In this document: in pieces, positions 17,105 to 63,864 of the stretch | How the letters are laid out: every line of letters begins with the position of its first letter | Numbering within the stretch: the stretch's first letter is position 1 | From: Marinobacter sp. | GTDB lineage: Bacteria; Pseudomonadota; Gammaproteobacteria; Pseudomonadales; Oleiphilaceae | Length of the DNA: 64,000 nt | Direction of reading: 5' to 3' | NCBI GenBank assembly: GCA_014359475.1 | Contig: JACIZI010000001.1 | Coordinates: 310,001-374,000 of the forward strand | Made by a program: the position numbers and the translations under genes | Notes under the pieces: model-generated | Told to the model about the DNA's origin: nothing | The model's input: only the letters and a program-made list of their open reading frames with translations | Databases searched by the model: none

Positions 17105-18020
17105 TACCAAGAAACTCCAGGATTGCTGCCGCCACCGGCTCCACATCACCATCCAGGTGGCAGTGATGACCGCCAGGCACATCCACTACCTGCAGTTGCC
17201 TGAAGAATTCCAGTCGATGCCCGAATGACAGGCTTTCCGCCAGCAGACCCTCGCTGGCCCGGATAAACAGGGCCGGGGTAGGCACCGCCTTCATACAGGC
17301 TTCAACCTGCGCCTCATCCATCATCATGGGCGACGGATGCCGCAGCCGGGGGTCGGTACGCCACCGGTAGCCGCCCTCCACCGCCTGCATGTTGCGCCGC
17401 ACCAGCTTCATGGCGGCCCGGTCAGACAAGGGGCTGAGCCCGCCGGCACGTGACCTGGCCGCAGTTGCGATGTCCGGATACACAACCCCCCGGCCGGAAC
17501 CGGCAATACGCTTGCGGATCGCTTTGCGCAACTGATCCACGAACGCTGCAGGGGGGCGGGTGAGCGGGCCGAGACTGTCAATCATGACCAGCCTGCGCAC
17601 ATGTTCCGGGAAGGTGGCCGCATACAGCAGTGACACAATGCCGCCCAGGGAATGGCCGACCAGATCCACCTGCGGCTGGCTGTCAGTCAGAAAATGGCTC
17701 TCCAGCAATTCTGCCAGATCCGCCACGTAATCCACCAACAGGTAAGCCTGCCCTTCCGGCCTGTGGCCGGAATGACCGTGGCCGGCCATATCCAGGGCGT
17801 AAAGGTCACCCAGGCGACCCAGCTTCGGCGCGAGCAGAGAAAACGTCTCGCTGTTATCCAGCCAGCCATGGAGCAAAAGTGTGGGTGTCTGTTTGCCGGT
17901 AACCCCGGCCGGGGCAGGCCAGTATTGCCCGGCCAGGGTGATGGCCCGCAACGGCCAGGTTCGCTCGGTGGCAGCCGACTTCATGTCGTTGCCAGGAGCC
18001 TTTACCGAAAGATCAGTCAT
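17097..18020 (-). CDS. Alpha/beta-hydrolase fold enzyme
   Basis: 307-residue cytoplasmic hydrolase. HGWLDN (oxyanion region, about 51-56), ALDMAGHGHSGH, and the nucleophile elbow VGHSLGG with Ser124 are visible; the C-terminal GGHHCHLD supplies the catalytic histidine. Substrate unknown; it looks like the broad esterase/lipase group next to pilZ in related genomes. It follows pilZ after 22 bases and overlaps the next gene. Confidence 0.88.
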   Translation of the reverse strand: MTDLSVKAPGNDMKSAATERTWPLRAITLAGQYWPAPAGVTGKQTPTLLLHGWLDNSETFSLLAPKLGRLGDLYALDMAGHGHSGHRPEGQAYLLVDYVADLAELLESHFLTDSQPQVDLVGHSLGGIVSLLYAATFPEHVRRLVMIDSLGPLTRPPAAFVDQLRKAIRKRIAGSGRGVVYPDIATAARSRAGGLSPLSDRAAMKLVRRNMQAVEGGYRWRTDPRLRHPSPMMMDEAQVEACMKAVPTPALFIRASEGLLAESLSFGHRLEFFRQLQVVDVPGGHHCHLDGDVEPVAAAILEFLGND

Positions 18021-52742: not shown

Positions 52743-54875
52743 ATGCTCAAAGACTTCAGCCTTATCAGCTACGGACTGGCCACCGTTGCATTTGCCCTGC
52801 TGGCACTGCTGGCGGGCAGCCGTTACCTGCGCCGGAGTGTGGACCGCTACCTGCTGCTGGCCTCGATCATCTCCAGCGCCTGGGCGGCCTCAGTGGTCAG
52901 CCAGACCCTGTGGGGTACGCCGGGTTTCTTTGTGCGCTATGTGCTGGAAATAGGCCGGGATACCGCCTGGATCCTGCTGATGCTGTCCATTCTGAAGGCC
53001 TACGCCCGGGCCGGGGTCATCACCGGGCAAGTCCTCAAACGTCTCAACCTGGCCGCGCTGGGCGTGGTGCTGGCGCTCCTGGTACTCGCGTTTGGCGAAC
53101 AGTTCTTCAGCTTTCCGGCACCGACCGGAAAACTCAAGGTACTGGGGCAAATTGCCCTCACCCTGCTCGGCATATCCCTGCTGGAGCAAATCTGGCGCAA
53201 CGCCACCGCCTTCGGCCGCTCCGGCATCAAATACCTGTGCATCGGCATGGGTACGCTGCTGACCTTCGACTTCTTCATGTATGCCGACGCCCTGCTGTTC
53301 GGGGAAATCTCCGGCGCCTTCTGGAACGCCCGGGGCCTTGTGAATGCCATCATGGTGCCGTTGTTTGCGGTCAATGTCGTCAACACCCGCAAGCAACCCG
53401 TGGATTTCCAGCTCTCCCGGTCCGCCGTATTCCATGCCGGCACCCTGCTGTTCGCCGGCGGCTACATGCTGATCCTCTCCCTGGCCGGCTACTACGTCCG
53501 GGCCATGGGGGGCGAATGGGGCGAAGCCCTGCAGGTACTGTTGCTTACCATTGCCATGGCCTTCCTGGTCGCGGTACTCGCCTCACGCCGCTTCCGGGCG
53601 CGCATGATGGTGTTCATCAGCCAGAACTTCTTCGACTACAAATACGATTACCGGGAAGAATGGCTGAAGATGACCCGCCAGATGGCAGACCTGAGCAACG
53701 ACCCCCCCCTCCCCGACCGGGTGGTCCGCATCCTCGCCGAACTGGTGGAAAGCAACGCCGGGGCGATCTGGATAAAGGATGAACAAGATAACTACGCACT
53801 GAAAACCACGGTAAACCTCGCGGCACCCAAATTCACCACCATTGATGCGAACGCAGAAATCACCCGTTTCTTCCGGGAAAAGGAGTGGATCATCGACCTG
53901 CAGGAATACCGGGCCGATCCCATCAAACACAACCTGCTGGAGATCCCCGATGCCATCAGCAGCTTCCCGGAGGGCTGGCTGATTATCCCCCTGTACCTGG
54001 ACAACGAACTCTATGGCATGGCCCTGATCGGCACCCCTTACGCCAAAGTGGAGCTTAACTGGGAAAACTTCGACCTGATCCGGGTGGTCGCCCGCCAGAC
54101 CTGTAACCTGCTGGCCCAGGCGGATGCCCAGAACCGATTGTCCCGGGCCATGCAGTTTGAGGCAGTCAACAAAGCCTCCGCCTTCATGATGCACGACCTG
54201 AAAACCCTGATCGCCCAACTGTCCCTGCTGGTCAGGAACGCCCACCGGCACCGGGACAACCCCGCCTTCGTGGACGACATGATCACCACCACGGAACATG
54301 CGGTGCGCAAAATGTCCAACCTGATGGACCATATCCGCAAGCCGGCAGGCGAAGGCCAGAAAACCCGCAAGGTGGAACTCACCGGCATACTCCGGCAGCT
54401 GACAGAACAATACGCCAGGGGCAGCCCTGCCCCCCGAATCACCGGCACACAGGGCCCGGCAGTCATCAATGCGGACGAAGTGCAGCTGCGCTCGATCCTG
54501 GGCCACCTGATCCAGAATGCCCAGGATGCCACCCCGGCGGACGGCGAAATAACCCTCACCCTGAAAACCGCCAAACACAACGTGGCGCTGTTTATCCAGG
54601 ACACCGGCAGCGGCATGACCGAAGACTTCATCCGCACCCGGCTGTTCAAACCCTTTGAAAGCACCAAGGGCCTGACCGGCATGGGCATCGGCGCCTACCA
54701 GGCGCGGGAATACGTGCGCCAGATCGGCGGCACCATGGATATCACCAGCGAGCCGGATCTGGGCTCCTGCTTTACCCTGCGCTTCCCGCTCGCCGAACCG
54801 GCAGAAGCAGCCGACAACGCCGACGAACCGGTACCGGTGCCAGGCCCTCCATTACCCGTAACCAATGCCAAATAA
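52743..54875 (+). CDS. prsK: PEP-CTERM system histidine kinase PrsK
   Basis: 710-residue membrane kinase. About eight N-terminal helices (about 8-285), a GAF-like sensor domain (about 320-455), then the kinase core. The phospho-accepting His484 lies in AFMMHDLKTLIAQLS, N-box LGHLIQNAQDA, G1 QDTGSGMTE and G2 GMGIGAYQAREY. The layout and MMHDLKN/T box are those of PrsK, the kinase paired with exosortase A loci. Partner is prsR, 123 bases downstream. A Pro/Ala/Glu-rich tail ends the protein. Confidence 0.93.
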   Translation: MLKDFSLISYGLATVAFALLALLAGSRYLRRSVDRYLLLASIISSAWAASVVSQTLWGTPGFFVRYVLEIGRDTAWILLMLSILKAYARAGVITGQVLKRLNLAALGVVLALLVLAFGEQFFSFPAPTGKLKVLGQIALTLLGISLLEQIWRNATAFGRSGIKYLCIGMGTLLTFDFFMYADALLFGEISGAFWNARGLVNAIMVPLFAVNVVNTRKQPVDFQLSRSAVFHAGTLLFAGGYMLILSLAGYYVRAMGGEWGEALQVLLLTIAMAFLVAVLASRRFRARMMVFISQNFFDYKYDYREEWLKMTRQMADLSNDPPLPDRVVRILAELVESNAGAIWIKDEQDNYALKTTVNLAAPKFTTIDANAEITRFFREKEWIIDLQEYRADPIKHNLLEIPDAISSFPEGWLIIPLYLDNELYGMALIGTPYAKVELNWENFDLIRVVARQTCNLLAQADAQNRLSRAMQFEAVNKASAFMMHDLKTLIAQLSLLVRNAHRHRDNPAFVDDMITTTEHAVRKMSNLMDHIRKPAGEGQKTRKVELTGILRQLTEQYARGSPAPRITGTQGPAVINADEVQLRSILGHLIQNAQDATPADGEITLTLKTAKHNVALFIQDTGSGMTEDFIRTRLFKPFESTKGLTGMGIGAYQAREYVRQIGGTMDITSEPDLGSCFTLRFPLAEPAEAADNADEPVPVPGPPLPVTNAK

Positions 54876-54998
54876 CGGGCCTGTATCAAAGAATTCTGTT
54901 ACCAAACATTGCAAAGTGTAAAGGTTCAGTCAAGAATCACGGGTCGGGAACCGCAACGCCCACCCTGCATATACCGTCGACAAGGATGAGTGATAGTT

Positions 54999-56372
54999 GT
55001 GATCAGACGCTTATTAATCGTAGAAGACGACCCCGGCCTGCAGAGTCAGATGCGCTGGTGCTTCAGCGATGACCTGGAAGTGGCCGTGGCCGGTGATTAC
55101 GACACCGCCATGACCAGCCTGCGCCGGCTGGAACCGGAAGTGGTGACCCTGGATCTGGGCCTGCCCCCGGACCCTGGCGGCGCATCCGAGGGCTTTCGTC
55201 TGCTGGAAGACATACAGCGCCTGGCCCCGGGCACCAAAATCATCGTAGTGACCGGCCGGGAAGACAAAGAGAACGCCGTCAAAGCCATCGGCATGGGAGC
55301 CAGCGACTTCTACCAGAAACCCCTGGACCCGGACATCCTCACCTTTGTGGTCAACCGCGCCTTCCGCCTGGCGGAGCTGGAGCAGGAGAACCAGGAACTG
55401 GCCACCCGGGGCAACGGCACCTCCATCAAGGGCATTGTCGCCGCCAGCTCGCAAATGCTGGCCGTCTGCCGCACCCTGGAAAAAGTGGCCCCCACCGATG
55501 TCACCACCCTGATCAACGGCGAAACCGGCACCGGCAAGGAACTGCTGGCCCGGGCCCTGCACGATCTGAGCAGCCGCTCCTGCCAGCCGTTTGCCACCAT
55601 CAACTGTGCGGCCATTCCGGAAAACCTGCTGGAAAGCGAATTATTCGGCTTTGAAAAAGGCTCCTTTACCGGCGCCACCCACACCAAGAAAGGCAAAATC
55701 GAAAGCGCCAACGGCGGCACCCTCTTCCTGGACGAAATCGGCGACATGCCCATGGCCCTGCAGGCCAAGTTGCTGCGTTTCCTTCAGGAACGGGTGGTAG
55801 ACCGGGTAGGCTCCGTGAAACCCATACCCGTGGATGTGCGGGTCGTCTGTGCCACCCACCGGGATCTGCACGAACGCATCCAGAGCGGTGACTTCCGCGA
55901 GGATCTTTATTACCGTGTCGCGGAAATCACCCTGGACGTCCCCGCCCTGCGGGACCGGGACGGCGATGCACTGCTGATCGCCCAGTCGCTCCTGAAAGAC
56001 CTGGGCAAACAGATGGACCGGCCCAACCTCAGCTTCAGCGAGGATGCCGTCAAGGCCATCAACAACTACGGCTGGCCGGGCAACGTGCGGGAAATGATCA
56101 ACAAGGTAAAACGCGCCACCATCATGGCCGAGGGCCGGCGCATCACCGCCGACGACCTGCAAATGGCCAAATCCTGCGAAGGCGCGGACAATCAGCTGAA
56201 TTTACGTCAGGTCCGGGAGAATGCCGAACGCCAGGCCATTACCACCGCCCTGCAGTCCTGCGGCTACAACATGGCCCAGGCCTCCCGGCTGCTGGGGATT
56301 ACCCGCCCCACCCTGTACAACCTGACGGACAAATACCGGATAGACACAACCCAGGAAGCTTCCCGGGCCTGA
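54999..56372 (+). CDS. prsR: PEP-CTERM-box sigma-54 response regulator PrsR
   Basis: 457 residues. Receiver domain with phospho-acceptor Asp52 (VVTLDLGLPP), sigma-54 AAA+ domain with Walker A GETGTGKE (174-181) and the sigma-54 contact loop as GSFTGA (221-226, a Ser variant of GAFTGA), Walker B LFLDEIGDMP, and a Fis-type helix-turn-helix (MAQASRLLGITRPTLYNL). GTG at 54999 is chosen: it gives MIRRLLIVEDDPG, the family start, with AAGGATGAG upstream. GTG at 54990 is possible but too close to that site. It should activate -24/-12 promoters of PEP-CTERM genes, one of which is in this window. Confidence 0.93.
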   Translation: MIRRLLIVEDDPGLQSQMRWCFSDDLEVAVAGDYDTAMTSLRRLEPEVVTLDLGLPPDPGGASEGFRLLEDIQRLAPGTKIIVVTGREDKENAVKAIGMGASDFYQKPLDPDILTFVVNRAFRLAELEQENQELATRGNGTSIKGIVAASSQMLAVCRTLEKVAPTDVTTLINGETGTGKELLARALHDLSSRSCQPFATINCAAIPENLLESELFGFEKGSFTGATHTKKGKIESANGGTLFLDEIGDMPMALQAKLLRFLQERVVDRVGSVKPIPVDVRVVCATHRDLHERIQSGDFREDLYYRVAEITLDVPALRDRDGDALLIAQSLLKDLGKQMDRPNLSFSEDAVKAINNYGWPGNVREMINKVKRATIMAEGRRITADDLQMAKSCEGADNQLNLRQVRENAERQAITTALQSCGYNMAQASRLLGITRPTLYNLTDKYRIDTTQEASRA

Positions 56373-56421: not shown

Positions 56422-59124
56422 ATGAAAGCAGTTTTCACCCTACGCGCAACGCTTCTCGCTGTCGCCATCGCCGCTGGCCTGGCGGGCTGCAGCGATAAGC
56501 AGGAAGAAATGAGCCAGGAAGAGATCCAGTATCTCAGTCACCTGGATCAGTCACGGTTTTTCAAAGGGCAAGGGGAATTAAAAGCAAGCACCCGTGAAGC
56601 CCGCAGCGCCATTGAACTCCAGCCCGAACGTCCGGACCCGTACCTGGTCATTCTGGACAACCTGCTCACAGCGGGCGATGCGGTCAATGCTGAACGCCAA
56701 CTGGATGTCCTGATCAGCAATATACCGGCAGAGTCGCTGACGCAGACCACAAAAAACCAGGCATCACTGATCCGTGCCCGGGCCAACCTGATGCAAGGGA
56801 AATCCGGGGCCGCGTTAGCCGCACTGGACTCTCTCCAGGCCCCGGACCGGGCCCAGCAGGAAACCGCTGCCATCATGCGTGGCAAGGCCCTCCTCGCCTC
56901 CGGCAAACCGGAAGCCGCCCGGGAAGCATACCAGGCTGCAAACAACATATCCCCCTCTGCCGAAGCGCATACCGGACTCTCAAAAGTAGCCTGGCAACTG
57001 GAACAACCAGAGCGTATGCAGGAACACATAGCCCAGGCGCAAGAAATTGATCCCAACTCCTCCGAACTGTGGCTCTGGAAAGCCAGACTTGCGGAAGAGT
57101 CCGGAAACTGGCCTGCCGCCGAAGAAGCCTATATCCAGGCACTGGAGGATATCGGGCGTTACGACATCATGACCTACCGGAAATATGAAACCATGTCGGC
57201 GCTGATCCGGGCATTACGGGAGCAGGGTAAATCCTCGGAAGCCTTCGTTTACGAAGAGATTCTCGCCAAATCCGCCCCGGGCACCATCAAGAGCAACCTC
57301 ACCGCAGCACAGGTAGCCTACAAGAACGGCAACCTTGAAGATGCGGCACGCTATCTGGAAGAGATTCGCGCCCAGGCGCCCGGCAACGAACAGGCCGCAC
57401 TCATGCTGGGACTGGTGAGATTCCGGCAGGGTCGGATTGAGGAGGCCGAGCAACTACTGACACCGGTTGCCGAACTCGGCGAATCCGAACTGGCGAGCAA
57501 GCTGGTGGCCGCTTCGCGACTGCAGATGCGAGACCCGGAGGGTGCCCAACGCGCCCTGAAAAACATGGATATGGCCCAGACGGACCCGTCGGTGCTGGCA
57601 ATGGTGGGGATTGCCTCCCTCTCCACCGGTGACATCAAGACCGGGGAACAACTTCTGGAGAAGTCCCTAAGCCTGGCCCCGGATAACCAGCAGCTGCGCA
57701 TCCGCTACGCGCGATACCTGATCGCCAGTGACCAGCCCGGCAAAGCCATGGAACAGATCGCAATACTGCGGGAGCAGGCCGGGGATTCGGACGTGGTAAA
57801 CAGCCTGGCGATCCAGGCTCACCTGAGTAACGACAACCGCGCCCAGGCCGTGGCCCTCGCTGACCAACGACTGAAAGACAAGCCCGAAGACCTGACCGCC
57901 CTGATGACACGGGGTGAACTGGCCGCACAAGCCAACAACTATGACCGCGCCTCCGATTACTTCAGCCGGGCCGCCAGGGCCCATCCTGACAACGCCGCCC
58001 CCCTGGTAGCGCTTGGCCGGCTGGCACTGGCTCAGAACCAACAAAGCCAGGCACGAGCCCATTTCCGCAAGGCCGCCAATCTGAGCCCGAACAGCCTGCA
58101 GGCTTTGCAGGGCATGGCCCGGGCATACGGCGCGGAAGAGCTGAAACCGGAAATGGAAAAACTCGCGGAAGCTCACCCACAGGCCGCAGCGCCCAAGCTC
58201 ATCCTGCTGGAAATCGCACTGACCAACGGCAACCAGAGCCGCGCAGACGAACTGACCGCAGCCCTCCTCCAGCGGGAAAGTGCCGACACACCACCGCCAG
58301 CGGCCTCCATCGTTGCCAACATATACAACGGCGTTGGTGCCGGCTTGCGCCGTAATGGGCAGGCAGAGCAGGCCGGGAAAGTGCTTAAACGGGGCCGCGT
58401 GTTGTTCCCCGAAAATGAGAACATAGCCCTGCAGGCCGCCTCCCTGGCCTTCAGCCAGAATCAGCAGGATGAGGCAAGGCGCATCCTGCAGGAAGTGAAG
58501 CGCAATCACAGCCAGTCCCCCGGCCCCTATCTTGTCGAAGCGGACTATTTCGCCAGTCAGCAACAACACCAGCAGGCCGCTGAGTTATACGAACTGGCTA
58601 TCAGCAAGGGCGCCGGGGCGGACACGAAGCTCGCCGTTGTACGATCACTGGAACAGTCCGGCCGGCTGGAAGACGCCATCCAGTACGCCCAGAGCGCATT
58701 GGGTGAACACCCCCGCCACCAGGGACTTCTGATAACCAGCGCAATGCTCCACCAACAAAACGACAATCGCGCCCGGGCGATCGAGGCCTACGAGCAGGTA
58801 CTGGAAATCAACCCCCGCAATTCCCTTGCCCTGAACAACCTGGCCTGGCTCTATCATCAAGAAGGCAACAAACGGGCCAGCGAACTGTCCCGTCAGGCAT
58901 ATGAGCTGAACCCTGAAAACGCTGCCATCGCGGATACGCATGGCTGGATTCTGTTCAAGTCAGGACAGACAGCGGCCAGTCTGCCGATACTCGAAAAGGC
59001 CCATGCTCTGGATCCGGAATCCAGAGAAATTGCCCTGCACCTGGCCGAGGCCTACCGCGCCGCCGGTCGCAGCGCCGATGCCAGAAGAATACTTGAGAAA
59101 CAGGGCACCGACAGCAACGGGTAA
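56422..59124 (+). CDS. prsT: PEP-CTERM system TPR-repeat lipoprotein PrsT
   Basis: 900 residues. Lipoprotein signal with lipobox LAGC (Cys23), then more than a dozen TPR-like helix pairs over the full length (for example SLAPDNQQLRIRYARYLI, NPENAAIADTHGWILFKSG). PrsT accompanies PrsK/PrsR in exosortase A loci and is thought to help exopolysaccharide or protein export at the outer membrane; the exact function is unproven. Strong ribosome site AAAGGA. 50 bases after prsR, so prsK-prsR-prsT are likely one unit. Confidence 0.92.
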   Translation: MKAVFTLRATLLAVAIAAGLAGCSDKQEEMSQEEIQYLSHLDQSRFFKGQGELKASTREARSAIELQPERPDPYLVILDNLLTAGDAVNAERQLDVLISNIPAESLTQTTKNQASLIRARANLMQGKSGAALAALDSLQAPDRAQQETAAIMRGKALLASGKPEAAREAYQAANNISPSAEAHTGLSKVAWQLEQPERMQEHIAQAQEIDPNSSELWLWKARLAEESGNWPAAEEAYIQALEDIGRYDIMTYRKYETMSALIRALREQGKSSEAFVYEEILAKSAPGTIKSNLTAAQVAYKNGNLEDAARYLEEIRAQAPGNEQAALMLGLVRFRQGRIEEAEQLLTPVAELGESELASKLVAASRLQMRDPEGAQRALKNMDMAQTDPSVLAMVGIASLSTGDIKTGEQLLEKSLSLAPDNQQLRIRYARYLIASDQPGKAMEQIAILREQAGDSDVVNSLAIQAHLSNDNRAQAVALADQRLKDKPEDLTALMTRGELAAQANNYDRASDYFSRAARAHPDNAAPLVALGRLALAQNQQSQARAHFRKAANLSPNSLQALQGMARAYGAEELKPEMEKLAEAHPQAAAPKLILLEIALTNGNQSRADELTAALLQRESADTPPPAASIVANIYNGVGAGLRRNGQAEQAGKVLKRGRVLFPENENIALQAASLAFSQNQQDEARRILQEVKRNHSQSPGPYLVEADYFASQQQHQQAAELYELAISKGAGADTKLAVVRSLEQSGRLEDAIQYAQSALGEHPRHQGLLITSAMLHQQNDNRARAIEAYEQVLEINPRNSLALNNLAWLYHQEGNKRASELSRQAYELNPENAAIADTHGWILFKSGQTAASLPILEKAHALDPESREIALHLAEAYRAAGRSADARRILEKQGTDSNG

Positions 59125-59181: not shown

Positions 59182-60300
59182 TTACATTGATCGGAACATG
59201 CCCTGAAACATGGGCGCTTTCGCCAGCATTTCCGCCAGCCAGCGGTGCCCCTGCGGATTGAAGTGGCCTTCGTTGGGATGAAACAGAGCGGCCGCATTCT
59301 CTTGACCAGAAAGGTCATCTGTCAGATTCAGTACCGGCAGTCCCGCACCTTCAAGGCGCGCCTCAAGCATCTCCGACATCACGCCCTGATACACCGCCGG
59401 TATCGATTCCCCCCTTGTATACCCCTGACCGGGCAGCAGAACGACTTTAAGCGTACCGCCGGCCGACTCCACCAGGGATTGGCCGCGCTCGACCAACGCC
59501 ATGAACAACTCCACCTTCGGACCACTGTGGGCCTGGATGTGCGCACGCAGGCCTTCCACATCAATACCGGCCCATTGATTGATAACGCGGCCAAGCGCAA
59601 CCCCATCGATCCAGGTCTGCCAGCGCTGGTACGGATCAAACTCACCAAGAATCTCCGACTGAACGCTTCTGGACCTGACGCTCTCGGGCTTGGGCCTCAG
59701 CGGCACAGGTACATTGTTCAGAGCCAGCTCCTGACCCGCCGATAAGCTATAAAATGGCTTACCGTGCGCCGCCTGCAACGGAAAGGCTTCACCGTTATCC
59801 AGCAGGTCATTGCCCAGATACACCATCCAGACCACTTCAGCCGGACGATAATCCGTCAATTTTTCAAGCAACATCAACTGCTGATCGTTCGCATACCCCG
59901 GCACGCCGGCATTCAGCACATTGCGACCCGTTTTTTCGCTCAGAAGCCGGGTGAATACCTCATCGTCATTTACCCCCAGGCCGAACGTAAAGCTGTCCCC
60001 GAGAAACATCACCGAACCCGGCCTGGCAAAATCCAGCGCCTCCCCGCGGAATCCCAGGGAATTCACTCCATAGCGCACACTGAAATCATGGTGCTCGTGC
60101 TGCCCTTCCCATCCGGGGGCCAGCTTCCAACCCAATCGTTCGTCATACAGAATAAATCCCTCATCCATTCGGCCAGCAGGATCAATCCTCGGCTTCAGAG
60201 CTCCCAGGGCAAACTCAACGATCGCCAAAGCGATAAACACGCCCAGCAACGCGGCGACAACACCAAAAATGCCATTTCGCTTTCCTGACTCTTGCGACAT
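59182..60300 (-). CDS. SGNH/GDSL hydrolase-like protein, membrane-anchored
   Basis: 372 residues. One N-terminal helix (about 11-34) then a periplasmic SGNH domain: block I MFLGDSFTFG with Ser103, block III YLGNDLLDN, and C-terminal HPNEGHFNPQGHRWLAE bearing the catalytic histidine. Such enzymes commonly add or remove O-acetyl groups on polysaccharides. The start ATG at 60300 follows AAAGGATTGG; a longer frame upstream is less likely. It diverges from the PEP-CTERM gene and converges on prsT, so a role in exopolysaccharide modification is inferred. Confidence 0.85.
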   Translation of the reverse strand: MSQESGKRNGIFGVVAALLGVFIALAIVEFALGALKPRIDPAGRMDEGFILYDERLGWKLAPGWEGQHEHHDFSVRYGVNSLGFRGEALDFARPGSVMFLGDSFTFGLGVNDDEVFTRLLSEKTGRNVLNAGVPGYANDQQLMLLEKLTDYRPAEVVWMVYLGNDLLDNGEAFPLQAAHGKPFYSLSAGQELALNNVPVPLRPKPESVRSRSVQSEILGEFDPYQRWQTWIDGVALGRVINQWAGIDVEGLRAHIQAHSGPKVELFMALVERGQSLVESAGGTLKVVLLPGQGYTRGESIPAVYQGVMSEMLEARLEGAGLPVLNLTDDLSGQENAAALFHPNEGHFNPQGHRWLAEMLAKAPMFQGMFRSM

Positions 60301-60382
60301 AAACCAATCCTTTATCCAGCCGACAGGCCGATAGTTGTCCACAGCCCGGTGCATTCATGAGTGTCCAGTTAATTTACAACAG

Positions 60383-60398
60383 TGCATGTGTTCATGCA
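60383..60398. promoter_or_regulatory. Palindrome upstream of the sigma-54 promoter, candidate PrsR enhancer
   Basis: TGCATG-TGTT-CATGCA, perfect 6-bp arms, about 55 bases upstream of the -24 element. That is a usual place for an enhancer-binding protein such as PrsR. The link to PrsR is inference from position. Confidence 0.45.
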
Positions 60399-60443
60399 GT
60401 AGCACCGCCCCTAAGTTCCTAAAACGAATAAATTAACCAATAA

Positions 60444-60459
60444 CGGCACAGCACTTGCT
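60444..60459 (+). promoter_or_regulatory. Sigma-54 (-24/-12) promoter of the PEP-CTERM gene
   Basis: CGGCAC-AGCAC-TTGCT: GGCAC and TTGC with the exact 5-base spacing of the RpoN consensus TGGCAC-N5-TTGCW, differing only at the first base. It would start transcripts near 60470, about 75 bases before the ATG. PrsR, a sigma-54 activator, is encoded 5 kb away. Confidence 0.85.
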
Positions 60460-60546
60460 GACTATAGATTGTTCACCAGTACGAACAAAATTACCACTGT
60501 CATCAACACGGCAGTATGTGTGGTAACAAAGGACAGGAGTATAGAG

Positions 60547-61353
60547 ATGTTGAAACAAGGAATCGCAGCCAGCCTGACAGGGCTTTCGTTGATCCTGGCA
60601 TCCGCAGCAGTCTCTGCAGAGCCAATCTCGGTTAACGATGCGTATATCGGTGCCGACGGCGGTGACCATGGTGATGTGGTGGGCTTTGAGTCCAAATTCG
60701 ATATTTATTCCATGGATATCGAGCAAAATGGCAGCAAGTTCAACTTCACCGTGAACACTGCGTTTGCAGGTAAGGCGGGCGTATATCCAAGCCTGACCAT
60801 CGGAAATACCGGCATTGGTTACGGTGACCTGTTCCTGGCAAATGATTGGGCACCTGCCGGATCCGCTGACGACGGCTACGCCAGCGATAATGCCTCTAAC
60901 GGAACTGACTGGACCTGGGGCCTGATTCTCAGTGACCGTTTCGACAACAATGGCGGAGATGTTTTTCTTGCCCAGCTTCCGGGAACTAACCTGCAAACTT
61001 CATTGCTCAGCAATAATTTTATGGATGTCCCCACAAGCCAGTATAGAAACGGCCAGGAAGTAGCCGTTAATACGGGCGATGGAGCTACGGAAGCCGGGCT
61101 GGTAGATCAATTTGGCAACGTCGGCACCTGGGGCCTTGGCACCAACCAGCTCAACATCAGCGTCGACCTCAGCCAGACCGACCTGCCGGGCGGCAACTCC
61201 CTTGCCTTTCACTGGGGTATGACCTGCGCCAACGACGTGATCGAAGGCGAAGTGGAACTGACCAATAAAGTACCCGAGCCAGGCACCATCGGCCTGATCG
61301 CTCTGGCACTGGCTGGCATGCTGGTTATGCGCCGTCGTTCAAACAAGGCGTAA
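60547..61353 (+). CDS. PEP-CTERM surface protein, exosortase substrate
   Basis: 268 residues. Signal peptide (about 1-24, SAAVSA), a Gly/Asp/Asn-rich beta-type ectodomain (DAYIGADGGDHGDVVGFES, AFHWGMTCANDVIEG) and a C-terminal sorting tail: VPEPGT at 242-247, a hydrophobic helix, then RRR (262-264 region). That tripartite tail is the exosortase A recognition signal; cleavage after it would release or attach the protein during exopolysaccharide export. GGAGTATAGAG ribosome site before ATG at 60547; the longer upstream frame starts at the promoter and is not used. Function of the ectodomain unknown. Confidence 0.92.
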   Translation: MLKQGIAASLTGLSLILASAAVSAEPISVNDAYIGADGGDHGDVVGFESKFDIYSMDIEQNGSKFNFTVNTAFAGKAGVYPSLTIGNTGIGYGDLFLANDWAPAGSADDGYASDNASNGTDWTWGLILSDRFDNNGGDVFLAQLPGTNLQTSLLSNNFMDVPTSQYRNGQEVAVNTGDGATEAGLVDQFGNVGTWGLGTNQLNISVDLSQTDLPGGNSLAFHWGMTCANDVIEGEVELTNKVPEPGTIGLIALALAGMLVMRRRSNKA

Positions 61354-61586: not shown

Positions 61587-61990
61587 CAGAACGGCACCTC
61601 CAGACTTGTCGGCTCGGAACTTTCCCGGCGATAGGTGGATGCCGAGGCATCAAATCGCTTGGGTGTCGGATCCTTGCCCAGCATCCTCATCACCAATCCC
61701 ATGGGAACCACCATCAGAAAATAAACCAGACTCAAAAGCAGAACAGAGTTGATGCGCCCCAGCGGCACCGCTATCCACATCAACGCCCGATAGACCGGCC
61801 ACAACCCCAAAGGAAACAGCAACGCCACCAGCAGCACCCCGGCACCCGCCAGCAGTGGCCATGAAACCCGTGGCAGCCCAAACAACCAGGGCAGAATGCC
61901 ATAAAACAACAGCGGCAAAATCACCGCCAGTCCGATGCCAAATTTCCTGAGCTCCGTTCCCGATACCTTCTCCGATAACTTCATGGTCAT
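61586..61990 (-). CDS. SxtJ-like small membrane protein
   Basis: 134 residues from the ATG at 61990, which overlaps the carbamoyltransferase TGA (TGATG); a second ATG six bases on is also usable. Four hydrophobic segments (about 18-35, 42-62, 66-80, 82-98) with a polar C-tail. It matches the SxtJ type of membrane protein found beside carbamoyltransferases. Function unknown. Coupled at both ends to its neighbours. Confidence 0.8.
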   Translation of the reverse strand: MTMKLSEKVSGTELRKFGIGLAVILPLLFYGILPWLFGLPRVSWPLLAGAGVLLVALLFPLGLWPVYRALMWIAVPLGRINSVLLLSLVYFLMVVPMGLVMRMLGKDPTPKRFDASASTYRRESSEPTSLEVPF

Positions 61991-63864
61991 CAATCCAGCT
62001 CAAATTTCTCTACATGGTCCCGGAATGCCTCATTCACGGGTTGATCCGCCTTGGCCAGCACATGGTTGCCCATCACCAGATAATCCATGTCCGTCGCCAT
62101 AAAGCAGCGATAGGCGTCCTCAGGCGTCGCCACAATCGGCTCCCCCCGCACGTTGAACGAGGTATTGATCAGCACCGGGCACCCCGTCAGGTTATTAAAT
62201 GCCTGCAACAACCGACGATAACGCGCAGAACCGCCCGCCTCTCCGACCGTCTGCAGCCGCGCACTGAAATCCACATGTGTCACCGCCGGGATCTCGGAAC
62301 GCAGCATCTTCAACTGTTCAAGCCCTGACAAATCTCCAGCTTCATTATTACAACGCTTTTTCAGGGCCACCGGAGCGGTCGTCAGCATATAGGGACTATC
62401 ATAATCACAGTCGAACCATTCTGACGCATTTTCCTCGAGTACCGACGGTGCAAACGGACGAAATGACTCCCGGAACTTGATCTTGAGATTCATGATCTCC
62501 TGCATGTCCCGCCGGCGCGGATCCCCAAGAATGGACCGATGCCCCAATGCCCGCGGGCCAAACTCCATGCGCCCCTGAAACCAGCCAATCACCTTGCCCT
62601 CGGCAATCAGCCCGGCGACACGCTCGAACAGCCCATCATCACCAAGACGCTCTGCAACGCCGGAATACTGCCCGACAACCGCCTCGATCGACTGATCCGA
62701 GTATTCCGGCCCCAGACAGGCACCGTTCATCCCGTCGGGACGCACCAGCTCACGCGCCTGCTTCAGATAAAGATACCACGCCGCCCACGCCGCTCCGGGG
62801 GCACCCCCCGCATCCCCGGCCGCCGGCTGAATCCACACGCTGCTGAACCCGCTCTCCCGTATAACCTCCGCATTGGCGACGCAATTCAGGGCCACGCCGC
62901 CGGCCAGGCACAGATTTTCCATCCCGGTTTCCTTATGCAAAGTGCGGGCAAGCAACAAAACGATATCGTTGGTGACCTGCTGGATGGACGCGGCGATATC
63001 CATGTGCTTCTGCGTTAACGCTGACGATTCAGACTGACGAACGGGCATGTCAAACAACGCCTCAAACGCCGGCGAAGTCATCCGCAGACCGGTGCAATAC
63101 CCGAAATACGCCATATCCAACCGGAAAGAGCCATCCGGCTTCACATCAACCAGATGCTCCCGGATCAGATCCGCATACAAGGGCCGGCCATAAGGTGCCA
63201 GCCCCATCACCTTGTATTCGCCGGAATTCACCTTGAACCCCAGATAATAAGTAAAGGCCGAGTACAAAAGCCCCAGGGAGTGCGGAAAGTCAATCTCCCA
63301 GAGCGGCGACAGCGTATTACCGTCACCCACCCAGGCAGAGGTGGTTGCCCACTCCCCCACTCCATCCAGGCAGAGGACCGCAGCCTTCTCGTAAGGCGAT
63401 GGAAAAAAAGCTGACGCAGCGTGGGACTGATGGTGGGCAGAGAACAAAAGCGGAGGCAAATCCCCGGCCTTCATACCGGAGACGGCGCAGAGCTGTGAAC
63501 GCAGCTCTTTCTTGAGGTACAACTTTTCCTTCAGCCACACCGGCATGGCCTTGAGAAACGAACTCAACCCCTGCGGCGCAAAACTCAGATAGGTCTCCAG
63601 CAGGCGCTCAAACTTCAGCAGCGGCTTATCATAGAACACCACATAATCAACCTGGCTCAGACCAATGCCAGCAAACTCCAGACAAAAGCTCACCGCGTAA
63701 GCGGGGAACCCGGGATCATGCTTCTTGCGGGTAAACCGCTCTTCCTGGGCCGCCGCCACCAGCACCCCATCACAAATCAGCGCTGCCGCCGAGTCATGAT
63801 AATAAGCAGAGATACCGAGGATATAACGTGGCGCACGGGAGGGAGACTTCGTAGGGCCATCCAT
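61990..63864 (-). CDS. NodU/CmcH-family O-carbamoyltransferase
   Basis: 624 residues with the two-domain carbamoyltransferase layout: N-terminal Kae1-like domain (ILGISAYYHDSAAALI, HHQSHAASAFFPSP, VLCLDGVGEWATTS, NSGEYKVMGLAPYG, LAGGVALNCVANA) and C-terminal YrdC-like domain (FQGRMEFGPRALGHRSIL, LINTSFNVRGEPIV). It transfers a carbamoyl group from carbamoyl phosphate via an adenylate to a hydroxyl of a sugar or other acceptor. In this locus, carbamoylation of the exopolysaccharide is the likely job (inference). First gene of a coupled trio with the SxtJ-like and DUF5989 genes. Confidence 0.93.
   Translation of the reverse strand: MDGPTKSPSRAPRYILGISAYYHDSAAALICDGVLVAAAQEERFTRKKHDPGFPAYAVSFCLEFAGIGLSQVDYVVFYDKPLLKFERLLETYLSFAPQGLSSFLKAMPVWLKEKLYLKKELRSQLCAVSGMKAGDLPPLLFSAHHQSHAASAFFPSPYEKAAVLCLDGVGEWATTSAWVGDGNTLSPLWEIDFPHSLGLLYSAFTYYLGFKVNSGEYKVMGLAPYGRPLYADLIREHLVDVKPDGSFRLDMAYFGYCTGLRMTSPAFEALFDMPVRQSESSALTQKHMDIAASIQQVTNDIVLLLARTLHKETGMENLCLAGGVALNCVANAEVIRESGFSSVWIQPAAGDAGGAPGAAWAAWYLYLKQARELVRPDGMNGACLGPEYSDQSIEAVVGQYSGVAERLGDDGLFERVAGLIAEGKVIGWFQGRMEFGPRALGHRSILGDPRRRDMQEIMNLKIKFRESFRPFAPSVLEENASEWFDCDYDSPYMLTTAPVALKKRCNNEAGDLSGLEQLKMLRSEIPAVTHVDFSARLQTVGEAGGSARYRRLLQAFNNLTGCPVLINTSFNVRGEPIVATPEDAYRCFMATDMDYLVMGNHVLAKADQPVNEAFRDHVEKFELD

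Follow-up and report, generated by a model that had tools for sequence, protein, structure and literature searches.

Which DNA element would a PrsR-type regulator use at the PEP-CTERM gene of this Marinobacter locus, and how is that element placed relative to the promoter? The original prediction, made from the window (the whole stretch of 64,000 nucleotides analysed here, C1:310001-374000), read a sigma-54 promoter ahead of the gene, with a PrsK-PrsR pair encoded nearby, and proposed a perfect TGCATG dyad upstream of the promoter as the PrsR site. The genes around the promoter are:

52743..54875, forward strand: prsK, histidine kinase (TIGR02916, 674.8 bits, cut-off 300)
54990..56372, forward strand: prsR, sigma-54 response regulator (TIGR02915, 662 bits, cut-off 502.6)
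56422..59124, forward strand: prsT, TPR lipoprotein (TIGR02917, 356 bits, cut-off 312.2)
59182..60354, reverse strand: divergent SGNH/GDSL-esterase-like gene (NCBIfam matches all below cut-off)
60547..61353, forward strand: PEP-CTERM protein gene, 268 aa, ATG at 60547 (TIGR02595, 25.5 bits, cut-off 16)

A profile search found this one PEP-CTERM gene within the window, in agreement with the claim that it was the only one, and a second, on the other strand, ends about 50 bases beyond the right edge (C1:374053-374121). PrsR is indeed encoded close by together with its kinase: PrsK, PrsR and PrsT, the three proteins of the regulatory region described by Haft (2006), all exceed their NCBIfam cut-offs, and prsR ends 4.2 kb before the PEP-CTERM start codon. 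Sequence inspection of PrsR revealed the loop motif GSFTGA and a Fis-type helix, TRPTLYNLTDKYRI. In a PrsR tree the window copy fell within the genus clade, with no supported closest partner. The genome, 3.69 Mb in 85 contigs, yielded one rpoN match and also encodes IHF alpha. Adjoining the PEP-CTERM gene at 61990-63864 is a NodU-like carbamoyltransferase gene (E 5e-39, below the family cut-off), which is perhaps part of a polysaccharide cluster.

According to Haft (2006, PMC1569441), 99 of 167 proteobacterial PEP-CTERM genes carry upstream a 17-nt motif 1 with TTTACA at its end, then a spacer of 62.8 +/- 10.6 nt (range 32-92), then a sigma-54 motif 2; PrsR was suggested there to bind motif 1. 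Upstream of the window gene we found the following elements:

60362..60378, forward strand: candidate PrsR enhancer (Haft motif 1), TGTCCAGTTAATTTACA, 17 nt (17.1 bits, genus model)
60379..60443, no strand: 65-bp spacer from motif 1 to the -24 box, which falls in the 59-66 phase class
60383..60398, no strand: TGCATG-TGTT-CATGCA dyad, in the spacer, not conserved
60412..60424, reverse strand: weak IHF-like element, TAAGTTCCTAAAA, 19 nt before the -24 box
60444..60459, forward strand: sigma-54 -24/-12 box, CGGCACAGCACTTGCT (score 18.2)

The predicted promoter letters were confirmed as CGGCAC (60444-60449), AGCAC and TTGCT (60455-60459), that is CGGCAC-N5-TTGCT, or GG-N10-GC with RpoN spacing. 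Sites were scored against the sigma-54 consensus, GG-N10-GC in a TGGCAC/TTGC context. The box is the best sigma-54-like site within 60150-60600, and only two sites of its score occur in the 64 kb on both strands. Scores of at least 15 were reached in 83 of 113 PEP-CTERM upstream regions of the genus (among the matches listed) versus 8% of shuffles. The box is well beyond chance, and transcription probably starts near 60470. Read in this way, the gene would have a sigma-54 promoter with PrsK-PrsR encoded nearby, which supports the PrsK-PrsR to sigma-54 circuit that had been proposed for it and that Haft (2006, PMC1569441) had predicted in general.

Homologues of the window PEP-CTERM gene were present in 4 of 97 genomes, the own genome included, and the best one outside it was 38% identical; orthologues were thus too few for a comparison, which instead drew on PEP-CTERM genes from across the genus. 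The genus sample comprised 81 genomes, the own genome included, and yielded the 113 upstream regions among the matches listed (30 loci, 80 further regions and 3 from the own genome), where the 80 were taken from 119 listed rows without locus and the last 39 were left out. Beyond the 83 regions with a box of at least 15, a wider search gave 87, of which the 76 that were less than 65% alike formed the non-redundant set (among the matches listed). A scan of the genome_contigs collection for motif 1 and box at gaps of 46-76 added at least 119 loci with at least 121 motif-box pairs; the 121 pairs come from 119 loci since L247 has two promoters and L280, where two overlapping motif-1 copies share one box at gaps of 55 and 76, counts twice.

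As letters the dyad is as perfect as predicted (TGCATG at 60383-60388, TGTT, CATGCA at 60393-60398), and yet it is hardly beyond chance, because perfect inverted repeats with arms of 6 nt turned up in 59% of shuffles of 60355-60546 when the loop could be as long as 20, and in 4.7% when it had to be exactly 4. Its conservation in the PEP-CTERM promoters of this genome and its relatives, the check suggested with the prediction, proved to be near chance, an outcome that the prediction itself had named as refuting. TGCATG was present in 5 of the 76 genus promoters (3.1 expected) and CATGCA in 2 (3.2 expected), while the exact dyad occurred in 1 of 87, the window alone (all among the matches listed). 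None of the other 86 genus promoters among the matches listed had the dyad with 0-1 mismatch, nor had either of the other two good PEP-CTERM promoters of the own genome; two mismatches were seen in one other genus promoter and three in three, where shuffles gave 0.9 and 7.1. The gap of the nearest homologous gene (L044, from another species, 38% identical) contained neither TGCATG nor CATGCA, and either arm was found in 0 of the 121 genome_contigs gaps among the matches listed.

A perfect repeat upstream of the box that exists as a single exact copy in the 3.69-Mb genome could be expected of a PrsR enhancer, but with its arms at chance frequency, the exact form in one promoter and no arm at the nearest homologue or in the genome_contigs gaps we rejected the dyad for this role and consider it very improbable as the PrsR site. 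The dyad could also serve a different regulator, acting locally to tune this one promoter, for example by blocking the loop. Its position inside the enhancer-promoter loop and the scarcity of 6-6 repeats with a loop of exactly 4 among shuffles would suit such a site, which is nevertheless unlikely given the one genome copy, the lack of near matches in the 86 other genus promoters and the lack of a candidate protein. A role of any kind is similarly unlikely, and the dyad is most likely a coincidence.

The conserved element of these promoters, as read from sequence, is motif 1 and not the dyad. Its consensus, TGTCRR-N5-TTTACA, is an imperfect inverted repeat. The window copy at 60362-60378 has the 17 nt ending in TTTACA of the Haft motif, stands 4 bases before the dyad and 65 nt before the box, within the 32-92 nt spacer range, and is the only place scoring more than 4 bits within 60150-60470. 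The first possible ATG of the esterase-like gene lies 7 bases from it, with a later ATG at 60300 being an equally likely start. Upstream of the box in the 76 genus promoters, no words were more enriched than TGTCGA and TTTACA (32 promoters versus 1.3 expected and 48 versus 5.2, respectively, among the matches listed). Motif 1 reached at least 8 bits in 72 of the 76, versus 1% of shuffles, under a model grown on the same 76 promoters. It precedes all three good PEP-CTERM genes of the own genome, at gaps of 65, 64 and 64, and at L044 it reads TGTCGGGAATCTTTACG with a gap of 64. The exact pattern TGTC-N7-TTTACA occurs 11 times in the own genome and the reversed pattern once; five of the 11 have a box of at least 15 within 30-140 bp, four of them at gaps of 65, 64, 64 and 50 and one at 43 or 100. 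In the genome_contigs loci a PEP-CTERM-like open frame, recognised by an ad hoc pattern, starts within 450 nt of 76 of the 121 motif-box pairs (among the matches listed), compared with 67 of 600 positions drawn at random from these loci, and 13 of the other 45 pairs have less than 1.2 kb of sequence downstream (among the matches listed). This predicted site is very likely a functional enhancer at the window gene, and PrsR may well be the protein that binds it. A loose order-wide search for TTTACA plus box also gave matches with the reversed pattern, and its unclassified rows served as leads only.

The distance from motif 1 to the -24 box took discrete values. When motif 1 was allowed to lie anywhere within 170 nt, gaps in the genus were 50-53 (35 promoters), 62-66 (27), 74-77 (8), 86 and 115, with none between (among the matches listed). 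The 121 genome_contigs pairs were distributed as 22 at 49-55, 75 at 59-65, none at 66-72 and 24 at 73-76 (among the matches listed), which corresponds to R=0.816 at a period of 11.74 among the matches listed, where the largest of 500 uniform sets reached 0.40. Among 398 phylum genomes there were 21 matches to the motif and box pattern, irrespective of a PEP-CTERM gene downstream, in 16 genomes and none to the reversed pattern; two of the 21 come from the own genome and are shared with the genus set. Gaps of 51-54, 61-66 or 73-74 were seen in 20 of the 21. The remaining one, at 68 (L320), sits inside a 284-aa open frame and was read as chance. Scans of 369 genomes from another collection, run after the series was seen and again for the pattern irrespective of a downstream PEP-CTERM gene, gave 14 matches for gaps of 77-107, at 83 (3), 85 (7), 95, 96, 98 and 99, and one for gaps of 18-48, at 41. 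The reversed pattern had no match in these 369 genomes in either range.

Across Pseudomonadota the gaps are therefore quantised at about 51, 63, 74, 85 and 97 bp, in steps of about 11.3 bp. A possible 41-bp class rests on one case. A linear fit to 206 gaps, assigned to the nearest of five centres that we set and without the gap of 115 (L177) and four promoters below 8 bits, gave 11.31 bp per step (bootstrap 11.12-11.50). Rayleigh periods for two sets were 11.74 (11.36-12.08) and 12.14 (11.76-12.65), so that period estimates varied by set from 11.3 to 12.1. A scan for weaker pairs at gaps of 25-124 returned 14, at 50, 52, 61, 64 (3), 74, 75, 83, 84, 96, 106 (2) and 112, of which 106 and 112 lie outside the named classes. 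Off the series is also one own-genome site, C1:385995, with boxes at 43 (score 15.5) and 100 (16.1), neither in a class.

Such a series could arise by common descent of a few promoters. Genus promoters share ancestry, and the 35 genus gaps of 50-53 might stem from few events; promoters that are related do not count as independent cases. Descent as the whole cause is nonetheless improbable, as all three main classes are found in alpha-, beta- and gammaproteobacterial records alike and two also in deltaproteobacterial ones (among the matches listed), a single Massilia contig has two promoters with gaps of 75 and 51, and gap lengths that had no part in defining the series land at 41, 83-85 and 95-99. 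The simplest reading is a face-of-helix constraint on a short loop, and we regard helix phasing as a real constraint with high confidence. The window, with its gap of 65, keeps the phase.

A second feature of the spacer was a sequence resembling the IHF consensus, WATCARNNNNTTR. With at most 1 mismatch it was found in 116 of 192 gaps versus about 28 expected (among the matches listed); by set, these were 77 of 121 genome_contigs and 39 of 71 genus gaps, with 17 and 11 in shuffles. Among reverse-oriented sites, 45 of 52 in genome_contigs and 20 of 22 in the genus ended 17-21 nt upstream of the box, with a mode of 19 (among the matches listed). Of the forward sites, 11 of 25 in genome_contigs and 13 of 17 in the genus ended 4-8 nt upstream of it (mode 6), and 10 of 25 and 0 of 17, respectively, at 15-17 nt (among the matches listed). 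The bend thus mostly has three geometries, reverse at 19 nt and forward at 6 or 16 nt before the -24 box, with the one at 16 not seen in the genus. From TTTACA to the reverse-oriented site the distance was 20-23, 30-34 or 41-44 in the three gap classes, that is in steps of about 11, and therefore the bend travels with the promoter while the enhancer moves by turns. The site was at 19 in all three good PEP-CTERM promoters of the own genome, perfect in the C45 promoter, with 1 mismatch in the second C1 promoter and with 2 in the window; at L044 it was also at 19, with 1 mismatch.

For the set of promoters, IHF is the probable occupant of this middle element. Alternatively, the middle might be an AT-rich bend, an HU-tolerant flexible tract or a contact for the polymerase alpha subunit, which would agree with the 44 of 121 and 32 of 71 gaps where any IHF match has 2 or more mismatches and which still belong to the same gap classes (among the matches listed). 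We find this alternative rather doubtful, since the true consensus was enriched in both sets but the reversed consensus was not (16 of 121 and 9 of 71, among the matches listed), and the position and orientation of the IHF-like sites are mostly locked. Returning to IHF, the window element at 60412-60424 is weak, with 2 mismatches, but in register at the modal position of 19. The chance of 2 mismatches or fewer was 0.009 at this exact place, 0.039 at 17-21 and 0.65 anywhere in the gap. The element may work in spite of its weakness, and whether IHF would be the protein on it is evenly balanced.

Taken as a whole, the window promoter is very probably a PrsR-activated sigma-54 promoter of the Haft type, with PrsR on motif 1, IHF-type bending that loops it onto the sigma-54 polymerase, and a coincidental dyad. 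Phosphorylated PrsR, of which the genome encodes two, would bind TGTCCAGTTAATTTACA at 60362-60378, with its centre at about -100. The DNA between motif 1 and the -24/-12 box would be bent, probably by IHF, at the element 19 nt before the box, and the bend would bring PrsR onto the sigma-54 polymerase bound at 60444-60459, which PrsR would then open. Apart from a constant offset, the distance from enhancer to promoter would be an integral multiple of the in-vivo helix turn, and PrsR would therefore sit on one fixed face of the DNA.

The circuit as such is already known, and the window promoter is one more case of a known type. It shares with the Haft region (PMC1569441) the motif ending in TTTACA, the sigma-54 box, PrsK, PrsR and PrsT, and a gap of 65 that is within the spacer range; the available parts of that account, however, give the spacer as mean, SD and range and name neither discrete classes nor an IHF element. 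In Aquincola tertiaricarbonis, the PEP-CTERM gene pepA likewise has a box (TGGCAC/CTGCTT) and a predicted enhancer upstream, and there RpoN1 dependence and a mapped start are experimental (PMC9850573), whereas our case is built from sequence alone. Control of a PEP-CTERM gene by PrsK-PrsR and RpoN has been stated with reference to work on Zoogloea (PMC9012009). The PrsR-like regulator DVUA0057 of Desulfovibrio vulgaris bound five predicted PEP-CTERM target promoters in DAP-chip; a motif shared with DVU0110 was predicted, and a 2011 figure legend states that none was validated for these regulators (PMC3333781, PMC4641369). The earlier remark that the PrsR site is poorly defined was fair, in that the literature consulted contained no footprint.

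IHF-assisted sigma-54 promoters (PMC7962754) share an IHF site between enhancer and promoter, but here the spacing rule was derived from natural promoters, about 200 in number, attributed to a single regulator family. The accessible literature, mostly outside subscription journals, gave no result for PEP-CTERM promoters with IHF or integration host factor, and the discrete spacing with the locked IHF-like site, which is not in the Haft account as available, is apparently new. For looping by lac repressor in vivo, 11.60 +/- 0.01, 11.08 +/- 0.04 and, without HU, 10.95 +/- 0.03 bp per turn have been reported (PMC1762422). These repeats, from engineered spacers in E. coli and not from natural variation as here, are close to our step of about 11.3 bp, and therefore genomes may hold a readable record of the twist of looped DNA in many bacteria. 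It is likely that PrsR promoters across Pseudomonadota follow a helix-phase code (51, 63, 74, 85, 97 and perhaps 41) with a mostly promoter-locked IHF-type bend, which would provide such a natural record and a regulon-wide definition of the PrsR site. The candidate PrsR site thereby shifts from the palindrome, most likely a coincidence, to a 17-bp element that is conserved and open to immediate footprinting. A spacer known as mean, SD and range becomes a sharp rule, one helix face with IHF-like bending between, and this rule should allow prediction of the regulon with few false matches.

Several further observations concern the own genome. A second set of prsK (part), prsR and prsT (part) is located on a 4.5-kb contig (C52:1-4460, L040), and the own genome was the only one of 58 with two prsR genes over cut-off. 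The recognition helix of the C52 PrsR, TRPTLYNLTDKYRI, is identical to that of the window copy. The C52 set may be contamination (genome estimate 1.47%). To the right of the window, the convergent second PEP-CTERM gene (C1:374053-374988), with 37% identity to the window's, has its own TGTCAGATTTGTTTACA, a gap of 64 and an IHF-like site at 19. A PEP-CTERM gene in which AEP replaces PEP is flanked by two motif-1 sites pointing towards each other, at C1:385995 on the forward and C1:387611 on the reverse strand (L038:15995-16070 and 17545-17627), each with a site perfectly matching the IHF consensus. After the first, with its boxes at 43 and 100, visual inspection suggests a degraded second copy of the gene; the other has its box at a gap of 50, and a clear PEP-CTERM frame is lacking there.

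In 8 of the 76 genus promoters (L134, L137, L142, L144, L147, L153, L165 and L166) a second, reverse-oriented motif 1 starts 83-86 bp upstream of the forward copy, which perhaps marks a divergent promoter or a paired enhancer. The promoters with gaps of 83-99 (L340-L353) had an IHF-like site with at most 1 mismatch in 9 of 14 cases; the box follows the site after 17-20 nt in 5 of the 9 and after 29-30 nt in 3, about one turn apart.
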